Part shown: positions 27,979 to 31,845 of the stretch, piece by piece
Numbering within the stretch: position 1 is the first letter of the stretch
Layout of the letters: each line of letters starts with the position of its first letter
DNA from: a virus
DNA: 33,990 nucleotides
IMG/VR virus record: IMGVR_UViG_3300020200_000089
Span: 1-33,990 of that record
Strand: one strand, 5' to 3'
Position numbers and translations under genes: made by a program
The notes under the pieces: generated by a model
Told to the model about the DNA's origin: nothing
Seen by the model: the letters and a program-made list of their open reading frames with translations, nothing else
The model's database searches: none

Positions 27979-28091
27979 AAACACCGCCTACAGCTGCCTA
28001 CAAAATAATAACATAAAAATCAATTAATTATAATAAAAATGTTGTAGGCATGCTTAAAATTTGTAGGCACACCCCCCCTTTTTGTAGGCAT
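27975..28091. repeat. 117-bp palindromic-ended element, copy 2; candidate origin
   Basis: Same length and ends as copy 1 at 9228-9344, in opposite orientation. Two GCCTACA units face three TGTAGGC units across a very AT-rich core (about 28004-28040). Iterons around an AT-rich core, directly after a replicative ATPase gene, resemble a replication origin. The element contains the stop of that gene and the ATG at 28050, so it encodes the first ~13 residues of the methyltransferase. Confidence 0.75.
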
Positions 28092-29240
28092 GGATCTTTA
28101 TTTAGCGGTATTGGCGGTTTTGATTTAGCTGCTGAATGGATGGGATGGGAGAATGTATTTCACTGCGAGTGCAATTCCTTTGGGCAGAAGGTTCTAAAAC
28201 ACTACTGGCCTCAGGCAGAATCTTTTAACGATATAACAAAAACAGACTTTACAAAATATGCAAACAGAATTGATGTTCTCACAGGAGGATTCCCCTGCCA
28301 ACCGTATTCAATGGCTGGAAAGCGAAAGGGCAAAGAAGATGACCGGCATCTCTGGCCTGAAATGCTTAGAGCAATTAGAGAAATTCAGCCAGGTTGGGTT
28401 GTGGGCGAAAATGTTTTCGGCCTTATTAATTGGTCAGGGGGATTGGTTTTCCATGAGGTGCAGGCTGACCTGGAAGCTGCGGGGTACGAAGTTTGGCCGT
28501 ATGTACTTCCAGCTTGTGCCAAAAACGCACCCCACCGAAGGGATAGGGTCTGGTTTGTTGCCCATCTTACCAACCCCGACAGCAATGGACAGCAGCGGGG
28601 CAACGGCAAATATGAAAAGCACACAGGTGAAGGAGGGGAGTATGCACAGCGTAACATTAGCCAGGGCGGTGAATATGGGCTTACTCCCGACCCCACAGGC
28701 GAATTGCAGCAAGGGTATGAACCCGGAAAATATACAACAGAAGGGCGGCAAGTTTTACAACAAGAAAACGGGGACGCAAATTCAAAGCAGTCCGGAACAA
28801 TGGGCGAAAATGGGTTTACTTCCGACACCGACAACACAGGAAGCGGAAACGAATTGCGAACTGACGGAAACGGGGAGACGGAAAACAAAGGACGGGGAGG
28901 ACAGCCACAGCCTGAATCTTGGCAGGATGGCAACGATGGGATTTCTACCGACACCAACGGCACAACTTACAAAACACGGACACACGGAACAATATTGGAA
29001 CAACAGAATTGGGAAAAGGCAAATGGATTTATCAATGTGGAATGCAGAAACAAATGGCAAAACTTCCCAACTCAATCCCCGGTTTGTGGCGGAAATGATG
29101 GGCTTCCCCGAAAATTGGACGGAATTACCTTTTCAAAATGGAGAAACGAAAGCATAAAAGCCTATGGTAATGCAATAGTCCCCCAGGTAGCCTTTGAAAT
29201 TTTTAAAGCAATAGAGAGTGTCCACAGGCATTGCCCATAA
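28050..29240 (+). CDS. dcm: DNA (cytosine-5) methyltransferase, C-terminal half overlapped by a second gene
   Basis: A 396-residue C5-cytosine methyltransferase. Motif I is GSLFSGIGGFD (15-25), the catalytic Cys83 lies in GGFPCQPYS, motif VI is GENV (119-122), motif VIII is PHRRDRVWFVAH (161-172), and motif X near the end is AYGNAIVPQVAFEIF. The region between VIII and X (about 175-350) is low-complexity, Gly/Asn/Glu/Thr-rich and repetitive. It is unlike a normal target-recognition domain, which fits its DNA being constrained by the nested frame at 28258-29157. It probably protects phage DNA from restriction. The first ~13 residues come from the 117-bp element. No better in-frame start exists. 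Confidence 0.9.
   Translation: MLKICRHTPPFCRHGSLFSGIGGFDLAAEWMGWENVFHCECNSFGQKVLKHYWPQAESFNDITKTDFTKYANRIDVLTGGFPCQPYSMAGKRKGKEDDRHLWPEMLRAIREIQPGWVVGENVFGLINWSGGLVFHEVQADLEAAGYEVWPYVLPACAKNAPHRRDRVWFVAHLTNPDSNGQQRGNGKYEKHTGEGGEYAQRNISQGGEYGLTPDPTGELQQGYEPGKYTTEGRQVLQQENGDANSKQSGTMGENGFTSDTDNTGSGNELRTDGNGETENKGRGGQPQPESWQDGNDGISTDTNGTTYKTRTHGTILEQQNWEKANGFINVECRNKWQNFPTQSPVCGGNDGLPRKLDGITFSKWRNESIKAYGNAIVPQVAFEIFKAIESVHRHCP
28258..29157 (+). CDS. Nested gene in the +1 frame of dcm, LLPTPT-repeat protein
   Basis: A 299-codon frame wholly inside dcm, from ATG 28258. The sequence looks truly coding. The N-terminal part (MQTELMFSQEDSPANRI, then WAKMFSALLIGQGDW and CRLTWKLRGTKFGRMYFQLV) is a pattern I know from Bacteroidota phage proteins. 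It is followed by four spaced motifs of the kind GLLPTPT (LPILPTPTAMD, GLLPTPQAN, GLLPTPTTQ, GFLPTPTAQ) and a C-terminus LNPRFVAEMMGFPENWTELPF, often seen next to or fused to dcm-type genes. It may act with the methyltransferase, for example in target recognition; this is inference. The antisense frame 28385-28963 is a shadow. Confidence 0.7.
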   Translation: MQTELMFSQEDSPANRIQWLESERAKKMTGISGLKCLEQLEKFSQVGLWAKMFSALLIGQGDWFSMRCRLTWKLRGTKFGRMYFQLVPKTHPTEGIGSGLLPILPTPTAMDSSGATANMKSTQVKEGSMHSVTLARAVNMGLLPTPQANCSKGMNPENIQQKGGKFYNKKTGTQIQSSPEQWAKMGLLPTPTTQEAETNCELTETGRRKTKDGEDSHSLNLGRMATMGFLPTPTAQLTKHGHTEQYWNNRIGKRQMDLSMWNAETNGKTSQLNPRFVAEMMGFPENWTELPFQNGETKA

Positions 29241-29478
29241 CGCAAAAGGGGTTGGCGAAGTTTCTTTTTTGGGGACTTCAACCACCACAGCCGAAACAAA
29301 GAAACACAGTTTAATAAACCGATAAACTATGATAGAATTACTAACCCCCCAAAAAAGAAATTTTGCTAACCTAATTGTTATGCACAGTTGCTTCCACTAC
29401 ACTTCAATCGGAGGACAAGAAAAAACAAAGAAAAAATTTTACGGGAGGGGTGCGTTGGCATCTTTTAAAAAACAAAAT
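29241..29478 (+). other. Intergenic region between dcm and helicase, with attC-like pairing
   Basis: No convincing gene. An in-frame ATG at 29329 would add 50 residues to the helicase, but that extension lacks the look of the family. GGTT-GAAGT and ACTTC-AACC near 29250-29290 can form a hairpin. CATAAC (29236-29241) and GTTATG (29377-29382), with inner GTTGGC and GCTAAC, give an arrangement loosely like an integron attC site, though the outer boxes match the consensus imperfectly. Confidence 0.35.
29437..29460 (+). repeat. Left flank repeat of the helicase-methyltransferase cassette
   Basis: TTTTACGGGAG, then GGGTG, then CGTTGGCA. The same sequence with one mismatch and without the 5-nt GGGTG lies at 31858-31876, directly after the methyltransferase stop. 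The direct-repeat pair brackets the two-gene cassette. Confidence 0.5.
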
Positions 29479-30855
29479 ATGAACTATACAGAATTTTTAG
29501 AAAACAAAAAACACTCTGCAAGTAATTACGGAATTGAACCAACATTCATTCCTGATGCAATGTTTGATTATCAAAAGTATGTTACCGAATATCTGATTAG
29601 AAAAGGTCGTGCAGCTTGTTTCCTTGATACTGGATTAGGCAAAACAGTAATTGAATTGACTGTTGCAAAAAACTACATCCAGCACACAAATAAACCAGTG
29701 CTGATTATTTGCCCTTTGGCAGTTGCATTTCAGTTTATCAAAGAAGCAGAGAAATTTGGCATTGATGATATTTCTTATTCAAAGGATGGAAAGTATAAAA
29801 CAAAGATTGTTGTTTGCAATTACGAAAGGTTAGAACATTTTGAGCCAACTGATTTTGATTGTGTTATGTTAGATGAAAGTTCTATTCTCAAAAACTTTGA
29901 AGGGGCAACGAAACAACACATCACTACCTTTTTAAAGAAAGTAAAATACAGATTTCTTTTTACTGCGACACCAAGCCCGAATGATTATATTGAATTGGGA
30001 ACAAGTTCAGAGGCGTTGGGATATATGGGTTACACTGATATACTAACAAGGTTTTTTAAGAATAATAATAACACTATAAAAAGTTCAGGTTTGCATCGTG
30101 CAGGGGAAGAATGGTATTTGAAACCTCATGCCGAAAAAGATTTTTGGAAATGGATTGCGTCATGGAGTATTTCAATGCGTAAACCTTCGGACATTGGTTT
30201 TAGCGATGCACTCCACATTTTGCCAAAACTTATTGAGATTGAAACAATAGTCGCAAACTCAAACCCACTTGCAATAAACGGACAAACGCAAATGTTCAAT
30301 TTCCCTGCGGTTAATTTCTTTGAGATAAAAGCAGAAGTCCGGGCAACAATTAAAACCCGTTGTGAAATGGCTTTTGAAAAGGCAACTGACCATGATGCAA
30401 GTGTTTATTGGGTAAACTTGAATGATGAAGCAAGTTTGATTTCACAATTGGACAAAGAAGCACAGGAGGTAAAAGGGCAAATGGATATTGATAAAAAAGA
30501 AGAAATACTACTTGCATTTTCAATGGGAGAAATAAAAAAACTGATTACCAAAACTTCAATTACTGCCTTTGGTTTGAATTGGCAACACTGCAACCACACA
30601 ACATATTTTCCAACTTATTCTTATGAGCAATACTACCAAGCAATAAGAAGGTTTTGGAGGTTCGGGCAAAAAAGAGAAGTGTTTGTTGATTTGATTTTAA
30701 GCGATGGACAAACACGAATAATGCAAAGTTTGCAAGTGAAAAAAGACAAAGCAATTTCAATGTTTGAAAATCTAACCGCAAACACCAACAGCAACTTTGA
30801 AATAAAGACAAAAGAATTTAACAAAGAAATAATTTTACCAAACTTCATAAACTAA
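29479..30855 (+). CDS. SNF2/DEAD-like helicase of a modification cassette
   Basis: A 458-residue protein from ATG 29479 (MNYTEFLENKKH), the start I judge typical for the family; ATG 29329 is possible but would include the flank repeat. Motifs: Q-like FDYQKYV (29-35), Walker A D50-TGLGKT (56), motif II L131-DESS, motif III FTATPSPN (161-168), and a late motif VI region (YYQAIRRFWRFGQK). These are the features of superfamily 2 DNA translocases. The next gene is a DNA methyltransferase 6 nt downstream. Together they may act in DNA modification or defence avoidance. Base composition is clearly more AT-rich than the phage core. Confidence 0.85.
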   Translation: MNYTEFLENKKHSASNYGIEPTFIPDAMFDYQKYVTEYLIRKGRAACFLDTGLGKTVIELTVAKNYIQHTNKPVLIICPLAVAFQFIKEAEKFGIDDISYSKDGKYKTKIVVCNYERLEHFEPTDFDCVMLDESSILKNFEGATKQHITTFLKKVKYRFLFTATPSPNDYIELGTSSEALGYMGYTDILTRFFKNNNNTIKSSGLHRAGEEWYLKPHAEKDFWKWIASWSISMRKPSDIGFSDALHILPKLIEIETIVANSNPLAINGQTQMFNFPAVNFFEIKAEVRATIKTRCEMAFEKATDHDASVYWVNLNDEASLISQLDKEAQEVKGQMDIDKKEEILLAFSMGEIKKLITKTSITAFGLNWQHCNHTTYFPTYSYEQYYQAIRRFWRFGQKREVFVDLILSDGQTRIMQSLQVKKDKAISMFENLTANTNSNFEIKTKEFNKEIILPNFIN

Positions 30856-30861
30856 AACACA

Positions 30862-31845
30862 ATGATTAAAGAACAAGTTATCAAAGAAAATTACGCAATC
30901 TACAACGCTGATTGCATGGATGTAATTCAAACCTTGCCTGATGCAAGTATTGATTTATCGGTTTACTCCCCTCCGTTCGCTGGGTTGTATAATTATTCCA
31001 GTAGCGAAAAAGATTTTTCAAACTGTGAAAGCAAAGAACAATTTTTGGAGCAATACGAATTTTTAGTAAAGCAAATGTCAAGGGTTACAAAAACAGGTAG
31101 AATAAACGCTGTGCATTGCACAGATGTTTTTGATAACCGTTCTTTTCTTTGGGATTTTCCGCATGAGATTATCCGCATACATGAGAAATACGGTTTTCAT
31201 TATCGTAATAGAATTACGATTTGGAAAGAACCTTTGAAAGTTCGCATGAGAACAATGGTGCAAAGTTTAATGCACAAATTTATTGTTGAAGATAGCACAA
31301 GATGTTTTACGGCTATGCCTGATTATGTTTTGATATTTACAAAGGATGGTGATAGTTTAGTTCCTGTAACACATGAAAAAGGATTTACAGAATACTTTGG
31401 CGAAACTCCATTTTTACCCGCACACATTGAAACTTACGGCAACTATGAGGACTTTAAAAAGAAGTGGAAAAATTATGATGGTGAACCAAGCGGAAACAAG
31501 ATGAGCCATTTGATTTGGCAGCGTTACGCAAGTTCGGTTTGGGATGATATTAGAATTGATAATGTTTTGCCATTCAAAGAAAGCCGTGAGGAAGATGATG
31601 AAAAGCATGTTCACCCTTTGCAGTTAGATGTTATTGATAGAATAGTTGAACTATACAGCAACAAAGGCGAATTAGTATTTACTCCATTTATGGGAGTTGG
31701 TTCGGAAGTTTATAGCCCGATTTCACTCGGTAGAAAAGGATTAGGTGTTGAGTTGAAAGATAGTTATTTTAAACAGGCAGTAATGAATATGAAAGATGCT
31801 GAAACAAGGTTCAAAAAGTTTGAACAAACTACTTTAACCTTTTAA
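30862..31845 (+). CDS. DNA methyltransferase, N4-cytosine/N6-adenine class
   Basis: A 327-residue methyltransferase. Catalytic motif IV is S36-PPF (39) in DLSVYSPPF. The SAM-binding motif I comes late (FTPFMGVGS, about 276-280), then GLGVELKDSYF. This is the order of the beta class. SPPF does not decide between N4-cytosine and N6-adenine methylation. It is preceded by the helicase with a 6-nt gap and shares its AT-rich composition. Likely self-protection of phage DNA from host restriction, possibly coupled to the translocase. No restriction endonuclease gene is nearby. Confidence 0.88.
   Translation: MIKEQVIKENYAIYNADCMDVIQTLPDASIDLSVYSPPFAGLYNYSSSEKDFSNCESKEQFLEQYEFLVKQMSRVTKTGRINAVHCTDVFDNRSFLWDFPHEIIRIHEKYGFHYRNRITIWKEPLKVRMRTMVQSLMHKFIVEDSTRCFTAMPDYVLIFTKDGDSLVPVTHEKGFTEYFGETPFLPAHIETYGNYEDFKKKWKNYDGEPSGNKMSHLIWQRYASSVWDDIRIDNVLPFKESREEDDEKHVHPLQLDVIDRIVELYSNKGELVFTPFMGVGSEVYSPISLGRKGLGVELKDSYFKQAVMNMKDAETRFKKFEQTTLTF

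Follow-up and report, generated by a model that had tools for sequence, protein, structure and literature searches.

A locus in a 33,990-base IMG/VR virus record (one strand; the window below means this whole stretch at its full length) appears to encode a two-subunit C5-cytosine DNA methyltransferase in overlapping reading frames, a reading to which we assign a probability of about 0.84. The dcm gene would encode the alpha subunit, with motifs I to VIII and X, and a gene nested in its +1 frame would encode the beta subunit, bearing recognition modules and motif IX. Direct support comes from selection on both frames, conservation of the overlap, the complementary motif contents of the two products, modules that vary in position and order, and the existence of single-chain relatives. 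The chemistry and the apparent DNA-recognition part would be encoded by the same nucleotides in two frames. The features of the locus, with dcm conservation judged over 112 homologues, are as follows.

28050..29240 (+): dcm frame, 396 amino acids (aa), proposed alpha subunit, a C5-cytosine methyltransferase with motifs I-VIII and X and without motif IX
28258..29157 (+): nested +1-frame gene, 299 aa, proposed beta subunit
28098..28118 (+): dcm motif I, LFSGIGG, from the sequence; invariant or nearly so
28284..28310 (+): dcm motif IV, GGFPCQPYS, with the catalytic Cys, from the sequence; core invariant
28354..28524 (+): nested N-terminal domain, residues 33-89, predicted helix-helix-hairpin; an AlphaFold2 block with predicted local distance difference test (pLDDT) scores of 62-88
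28407..28415 (+): dcm motif VI, ENV, from the sequence; invariant
28533..28547 (+): dcm motif VIII, HRRDR, from the sequence; H162 and R164 invariant
28564..28680 (+): nested module 1 (LPTPTAMDSSGATANMKSTQVKEGSMHSVTL), from module analysis
28572..29085 (+): dcm spacer between motifs VIII and X, disordered and neutrally evolving by pLDDT and substitution rates
28681..28815 (+): nested module 2 (LLPTPQANCSKG...), from module analysis
28816..28941 (+): nested module 3 (LLPTPTTQEAE...), of a family found at positions 1-4 in other proteins
28942..29070 (+): nested module 4 (FLPTPTAQLTKHGH...), of a family found at positions 2-4 in other proteins
29071..29118 (+): nested motif IX-like sequence LNPRFVAEMMGFPENW, whose best hhalign match is motif IX of single-chain dcm proteins
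29166..29186 (+): dcm motif X, GNAIVPQ; G373, N374, A375, V377, P378 and Q379 nearly invariant

The dcm frame matches PF00145 (E 2.5e-44) and carries motifs I, IV (PCQ), VI (ENV), VIII and X of C5-cytosine DNA methyltransferases; motif IX and a folded recognition domain, expected on the same chain, are absent from it. A first-pass annotation of the window had listed motifs IV, VI, VIII and X, all of which are present; motif I is there as well, upstream of the overlap. It had also described the dcm segment past motif VIII as low in complexity; this is so, and the segment is predicted to be disordered as well. In the AlphaFold2 model of the chain a good catalytic domain (pLDDT mostly above 90 at residues 11-80 and 101-150, fair to good up to about 180) is followed by a disordered stretch at about residues 181-360, where pLDDT is mostly below 50, and by the motif X helices. 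Foldseek matches of this model to M.HhaI in the PDB span only about 165-175 of 327 residues, and alpha alone is predicted to lack the small domain. We assign both motif IX and the recognition domain to the nested chain.

The +1 frame of dcm (28050-29240) contains an uninterrupted 299-codon open reading frame at 28258-29157 (+). When dcm was shuffled among synonymous codons this frame stayed open in 0.015% of 20,000 shuffles, with a mean of 5.8 stops, and it stayed open in 0.005% when dcm codons were resampled from other genes of the window. It matches PHROG_1008 (E 1.4e-30) and has no match in Pfam or NCBIfam. The label of PHROG_1008, DNA methyltransferase, sits badly with a nested chain that lacks any catalytic motif; methyltransferase specificity-subunit candidate would be a better name.

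The four spaced LPTP-type motifs and the conserved C-terminus noticed in the first-pass annotation are both present, with LPTP starts near nested residues 103, 142, 187 and 229. The preceding N-terminal domain overlaps dcm motif VI and reaches almost to motif VIII. The number of LPTP-headed modules in related nested proteins reaches seven and is usually two to four, and their median length is 40 aa; several module families sit at differing positions and several module pairs occur in both orders. A module resembling nested module 1 is found in Lacticaseibacillus phage R9.1. The C-terminal LNPRFVAEMMGFPENW ranks among the most conserved parts of the nested family, and when nested and single-chain dcm profiles were compared it aligned best to motif IX (LTPRECARLQGFPDNF), with E 0.032 in that one comparison. 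It lies 31.7 codons upstream of dcm motif X, a distance that is mostly 29 in single-chain enzymes.

A further view of motif IX came from 39 classified Bacteroidota dcm genes, a non-random sample taken from genomes reached via the loci. In 14 of these motif IX is in frame, and from motif IV to motif IX their +1 frame is interrupted by 4-22 stops; the other 25 lack motif IX in frame, have no +1 stops and carry an IX-like motif in the +1 frame. Homologous dcm genes with a freely interrupted +1 frame, which the first-pass annotation had named as evidence against its proposal, do exist, but they carry motif IX in frame. The proposed homology of LNPRFVAEMMGFPENW to motif IX draws on a short sequence match, backed by its position, by this mutual exclusivity and by the single-chain relatives.

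These single-chain forms occur in some Mycobacterium and Gordonia phages. ShiLan gp70, Daenerys gp70, Silvy gp53 and Lennon gp05 (the last, from a Gordonia phage, annotated from the middle) combine within a single frame dcm-type motifs, nested-family modules, an IX-like motif and motif X, the modules lying between motifs VIII and IX. In gp70 of Mycobacterium phage ShiLan (L320:1292-2461) the dcm profile matches residues 1-175, the nested-family profile matches about residues 155-352 (E 2.3e-9, scaled to 1e5 sequences) and motif X stands at the end. Two LPTP stretches are left in the ShiLan +1 frame, upstream of the in-frame ones, which suggests that a frameshift in an ancestor of the nested type gave rise to the fusion. 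A tandem arrangement is seen in Wander gp79/gp78, split end to end after motif VIII, where LPTP modules, the IX-like motif and motif X all fall on gp78. Lilbooboo gp32/gp33 looks like the Wander split, but its match to the nested profile is not significant.

For the selection analysis, substitutions were sorted by their effect in both frames, and pairs less than 10% diverged were treated as close. Among close pairs, changes altering both proteins were the rarest (dNN 0.023), against 0.101 for those altering dcm only (dNS), 0.065 for the nested protein only (dSN) and 0.158 for neither (dSS). Close pairs gave ratios of 0.11 for dcm and 0.37 for the nested frame in the region of motifs IV-VIII; past motif VIII, 25 such pairs gave 1.23 for dcm (NN/SN) and 0.16 for the nested frame (NN/NS), and in the C-terminal part the values were 0.45 and 0.24, respectively. 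Both frames are constrained between motifs IV and VIII; past motif VIII dcm is neutral and the nested frame is strongly constrained. The dominant selected frame switches at motif VIII. In simulations with selection on dcm only, nested ratios in the catalytic half were 0.74-1.03, and a nested stop was gained in 54-70% of lineages within 6% divergence. For pairs 6-25% diverged, the overlapped catalytic half of dcm had 0.28-0.48 times the synonymous rate (dS) of the non-overlapping 5' part; for pairs less than 6% diverged the factor was 0.90. A single base separates dcm from that of a sister contig (L001), at 28821 (T/C); it falls on a nested third position, leaving the nested protein unchanged, and turns a dcm Ser into Pro within the spacer.

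The nested open reading frame is a real, selected gene, and the first-pass description of two same-strand coding frames over 900 nt was accurate, as judged by the open reading frame, the shuffling and the rate tests. The frame-by-frame measurement of selection that it had proposed finds both frames selected, with dominance swapping at motif VIII. Its idea that the dcm recognition region is shaped by the nested frame needs refinement: past motif VIII dcm is a neutral-like spacer, and the selected modules and motif IX are nested.

The arrangement is widespread. Scans of viral contigs kept the best 80 of 213 relatives of the nested protein and the best 80 of 485 for a conserved-region query, and a scan of GTDB genomes kept the best 80 of 111, mostly Bacteroidota. 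At 241 of 243 loci the nested frame is the +1 frame of a dcm open reading frame covering more than half of it; L242 and L243 are the exceptions. The +1 nesting is shared by more distant relatives, carried by phages or plasmids of Paenibacillus, Lacticaseibacillus, Escherichia, Klebsiella and Salmonella and, further, of Pseudomonas, Vibrio, Citrobacter, Mycobacterium and Synechococcus. The recurrence in Bacteroidota phages that had been suggested at first reading is borne out, and extends to distant phage relatives across several host phyla. Only 2 of 198 sampled Bacteroidota genomes contain the gene, and one of the two is the genome on which the sample was centred, so that it is sparse in chromosomes and probably mostly prophage-borne.

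Both genes are annotated in some records (Shelly gp55/gp56; K1G) and only dcm in two Bacteroides phage records. In that of uncultured phage KM23-C739 (L248) dcm is annotated short (1294-1536) and the nested gene is listed as a cytosine-specific methyltransferase. In many records the second gene is missed, or called a second methyltransferase, which leaves the annotation of many phage and prophage methyltransferases incomplete.

Although the joint function of the two products had at first been thought undescribed, enzymes of this kind are known. In M.EcoHK31I the small open reading frame lies within the large one, in another frame. The larger of its two polypeptides carries motifs I-VIII and X and a predicted target-recognition domain (TRD), and the smaller only motif IX (PMC3404938, citing Lee, Kam and Shaw 1995). 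Compared by description only, it is the closest known enzyme: the dcm frame likewise has motifs I-VIII and X without IX, and a IX-like motif, LNPRFVAEMMGFPENW, lies on the nested chain, as judged by profile match, spacing and single-chain relatives. It differs in that its TRD is predicted in the large subunit, whereas here the recognition-like modules are nested, tandem and shuffled. M.AquI, split within the variable region (PMC3404938), and Wander gp79/gp78 share the division of a C5 methyltransferase after motif VIII; their split is end to end with motif X on the second polypeptide, whereas here alpha, the dcm product, keeps motif X and the whole of beta is nested.

Totally overlapping C5-methyltransferase genes are described for the 5093-group phages of Streptococcus thermophilus, and also for S. 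pneumoniae phage MM1 and Tn5252; compared by description, two C5-methyltransferase-like products are likewise made from one phage DNA in different frames, and the available part of that account states no mechanism (PMC5601072). The dcm genes of Streptococcus phages IPP62 and Javan122 are ordinary, with +1 stops. Homologous nested +1 proteins are encoded by Paenibacillus larvae phage Shelly (gp55/gp56) and E. coli phage K1G (ORF31/ORF30), where they are known by annotation alone, as 'g55 internal gene' (gp56 also being called DNA methyltransferase) and 'Mte8-like protein'; they are shorter, with fewer LPTP-type modules. Literature on 'Mte8' yielded the gene name only, and the overlap is not discussed in the available part of a paper on 48 P. 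larvae phages. The tandem modules of about 40 aa may be compared with the multispecific C5 methyltransferases of SPbeta-type phages, in which the stretch from motif VIII to motif IX holds several TRDs in tandem, each of about 40 aa. These are single chains, the +1 frame of SPbeta-type MtbP has 41 stops, and no sequence similarity was detectable between the nested modules and MtbP. New here are the breadth of the arrangement, a selection pattern that swaps frames and leaves the alpha spacer neutral, and a nested-frame array of recognition-like modules.

We propose that the dcm frame yields alpha, with motifs I-VIII, an unstructured spacer and motif X, which would bind S-adenosylmethionine and catalyse methylation. 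Beta, made up of an N-terminal domain (about 95 aa), four LPTP-started modules of about 40 aa in tandem and a motif IX-like end, would supply in trans the small DNA-recognising half missing from alpha, forming a heterodimer. Built of swappable modules, the nested protein probably selects the DNA sequences that are methylated.

Several points weigh against this reading. The alignment to motif IX covers only a short stretch, with a weak E-value. The AlphaFold2 model of the nested chain is also weak (pLDDT 62, predicted template modelling score 0.28), with moderate confidence at residues 33-89; it matched no fold in the PDB, leaving a recognition-domain fold unsupported, and the nested profile matched no PDB sequence, although low model confidence would be natural for a chain dependent on its partner. 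Module family counts are rough, since single-linkage clustering merged 317 of 545 modules into one family. Two loci, L242 and L243, have dcm interrupted by a stop while the nested frame remains open. Openness is partly ascertained because the loci were gathered via the nested protein, the rate tests and the PF00145-based control being less dependent on this. Finally, the TRD of M.EcoHK31I is predicted in its larger subunit, unlike our assignment.

One alternative is a structural or regulatory partner that carries motif IX, with target recognition elsewhere, for example in the alpha spacer, where the M.EcoHK31I prediction would put it. We consider this improbable, though the least so of the alternatives: that spacer shows no amino-acid constraint (NN/SN 1.23) and is predicted to be disordered, and the conserved modules lie in the nested frame and, in single-chain relatives, between motifs VIII and IX. 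Of the two roles first suggested for the nested protein, specificity or regulatory partner, the former is the best reading and the latter is held at lower confidence.

In the proposed two-subunit enzyme, beta would arise by internal initiation just before motif IV. Across 227 loci the nested frame runs into a stop at a median of about 30 codons upstream of dcm motif IV, and every locus offers a start codon; candidate Shine-Dalgarno-like sequences lie near the nested ATG in several Firmicutes and Gammaproteobacteria members (L081, L255, L256, L257). Programmed +1 frameshifting after motif VIII, producing an alpha-beta fusion, could be imagined from the fused and tandem forms of actinobacteriophages, but it is quite unlikely given the closed upstream frame and the available start codons; moreover, it would leave the +1 frame of motifs IV-VIII needlessly open and constrained, and its product would lack motif X. 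That the nested frame is no gene but a side effect of dcm conservation and codon usage, as the overlap of its N-terminal half with strongly conserved dcm motifs might suggest, is virtually precluded by the codon shuffles, frame-specific rates, reduced dcm dS, simulations and motif IX dichotomy.

If each module is a target-recognition unit, the array could confer several methylation specificities and may shield phage DNA from several host restriction enzymes. We lean slightly towards a multi-specific pair whose module array is exchanged and re-ordered by phages of several phyla; placing the TRD of M.EcoHK31I-type enzymes in the large subunit would then be wrong, specificity residing in the overlapping frame. 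An inactive or unspecific enzyme would be expected from dcm expressed alone, and the modules amount to a code, open to testing, by which phages may evade host restriction. The family also offers a large natural data set on overlapping genes, in which the single-chain and tandem relatives can serve as comparisons.

At the two loci with interrupted dcm, L242 (a Bacteroides metagenome-assembled genome) and L243 (Bacteroides faecalis), the stop follows the catalytic half, at about 2886-2889. TGA stops also occur in a dcm match of the B. xylanisolvens genome G028, that of locus L230, from the genome search. Genes near dcm in the window include a serine recombinase/integrase, a DnaG-type primase, an SNF2/DEAD-type helicase and an N6/N4 DNA methylase, a context fitting a phage with several DNA-modification genes. 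The helicase (29329-30855) and the methylase (30862-31845) lie directly downstream of dcm and match separate parts of one profile, phrog_16, as if a fused helicase-methylase had been split in two.
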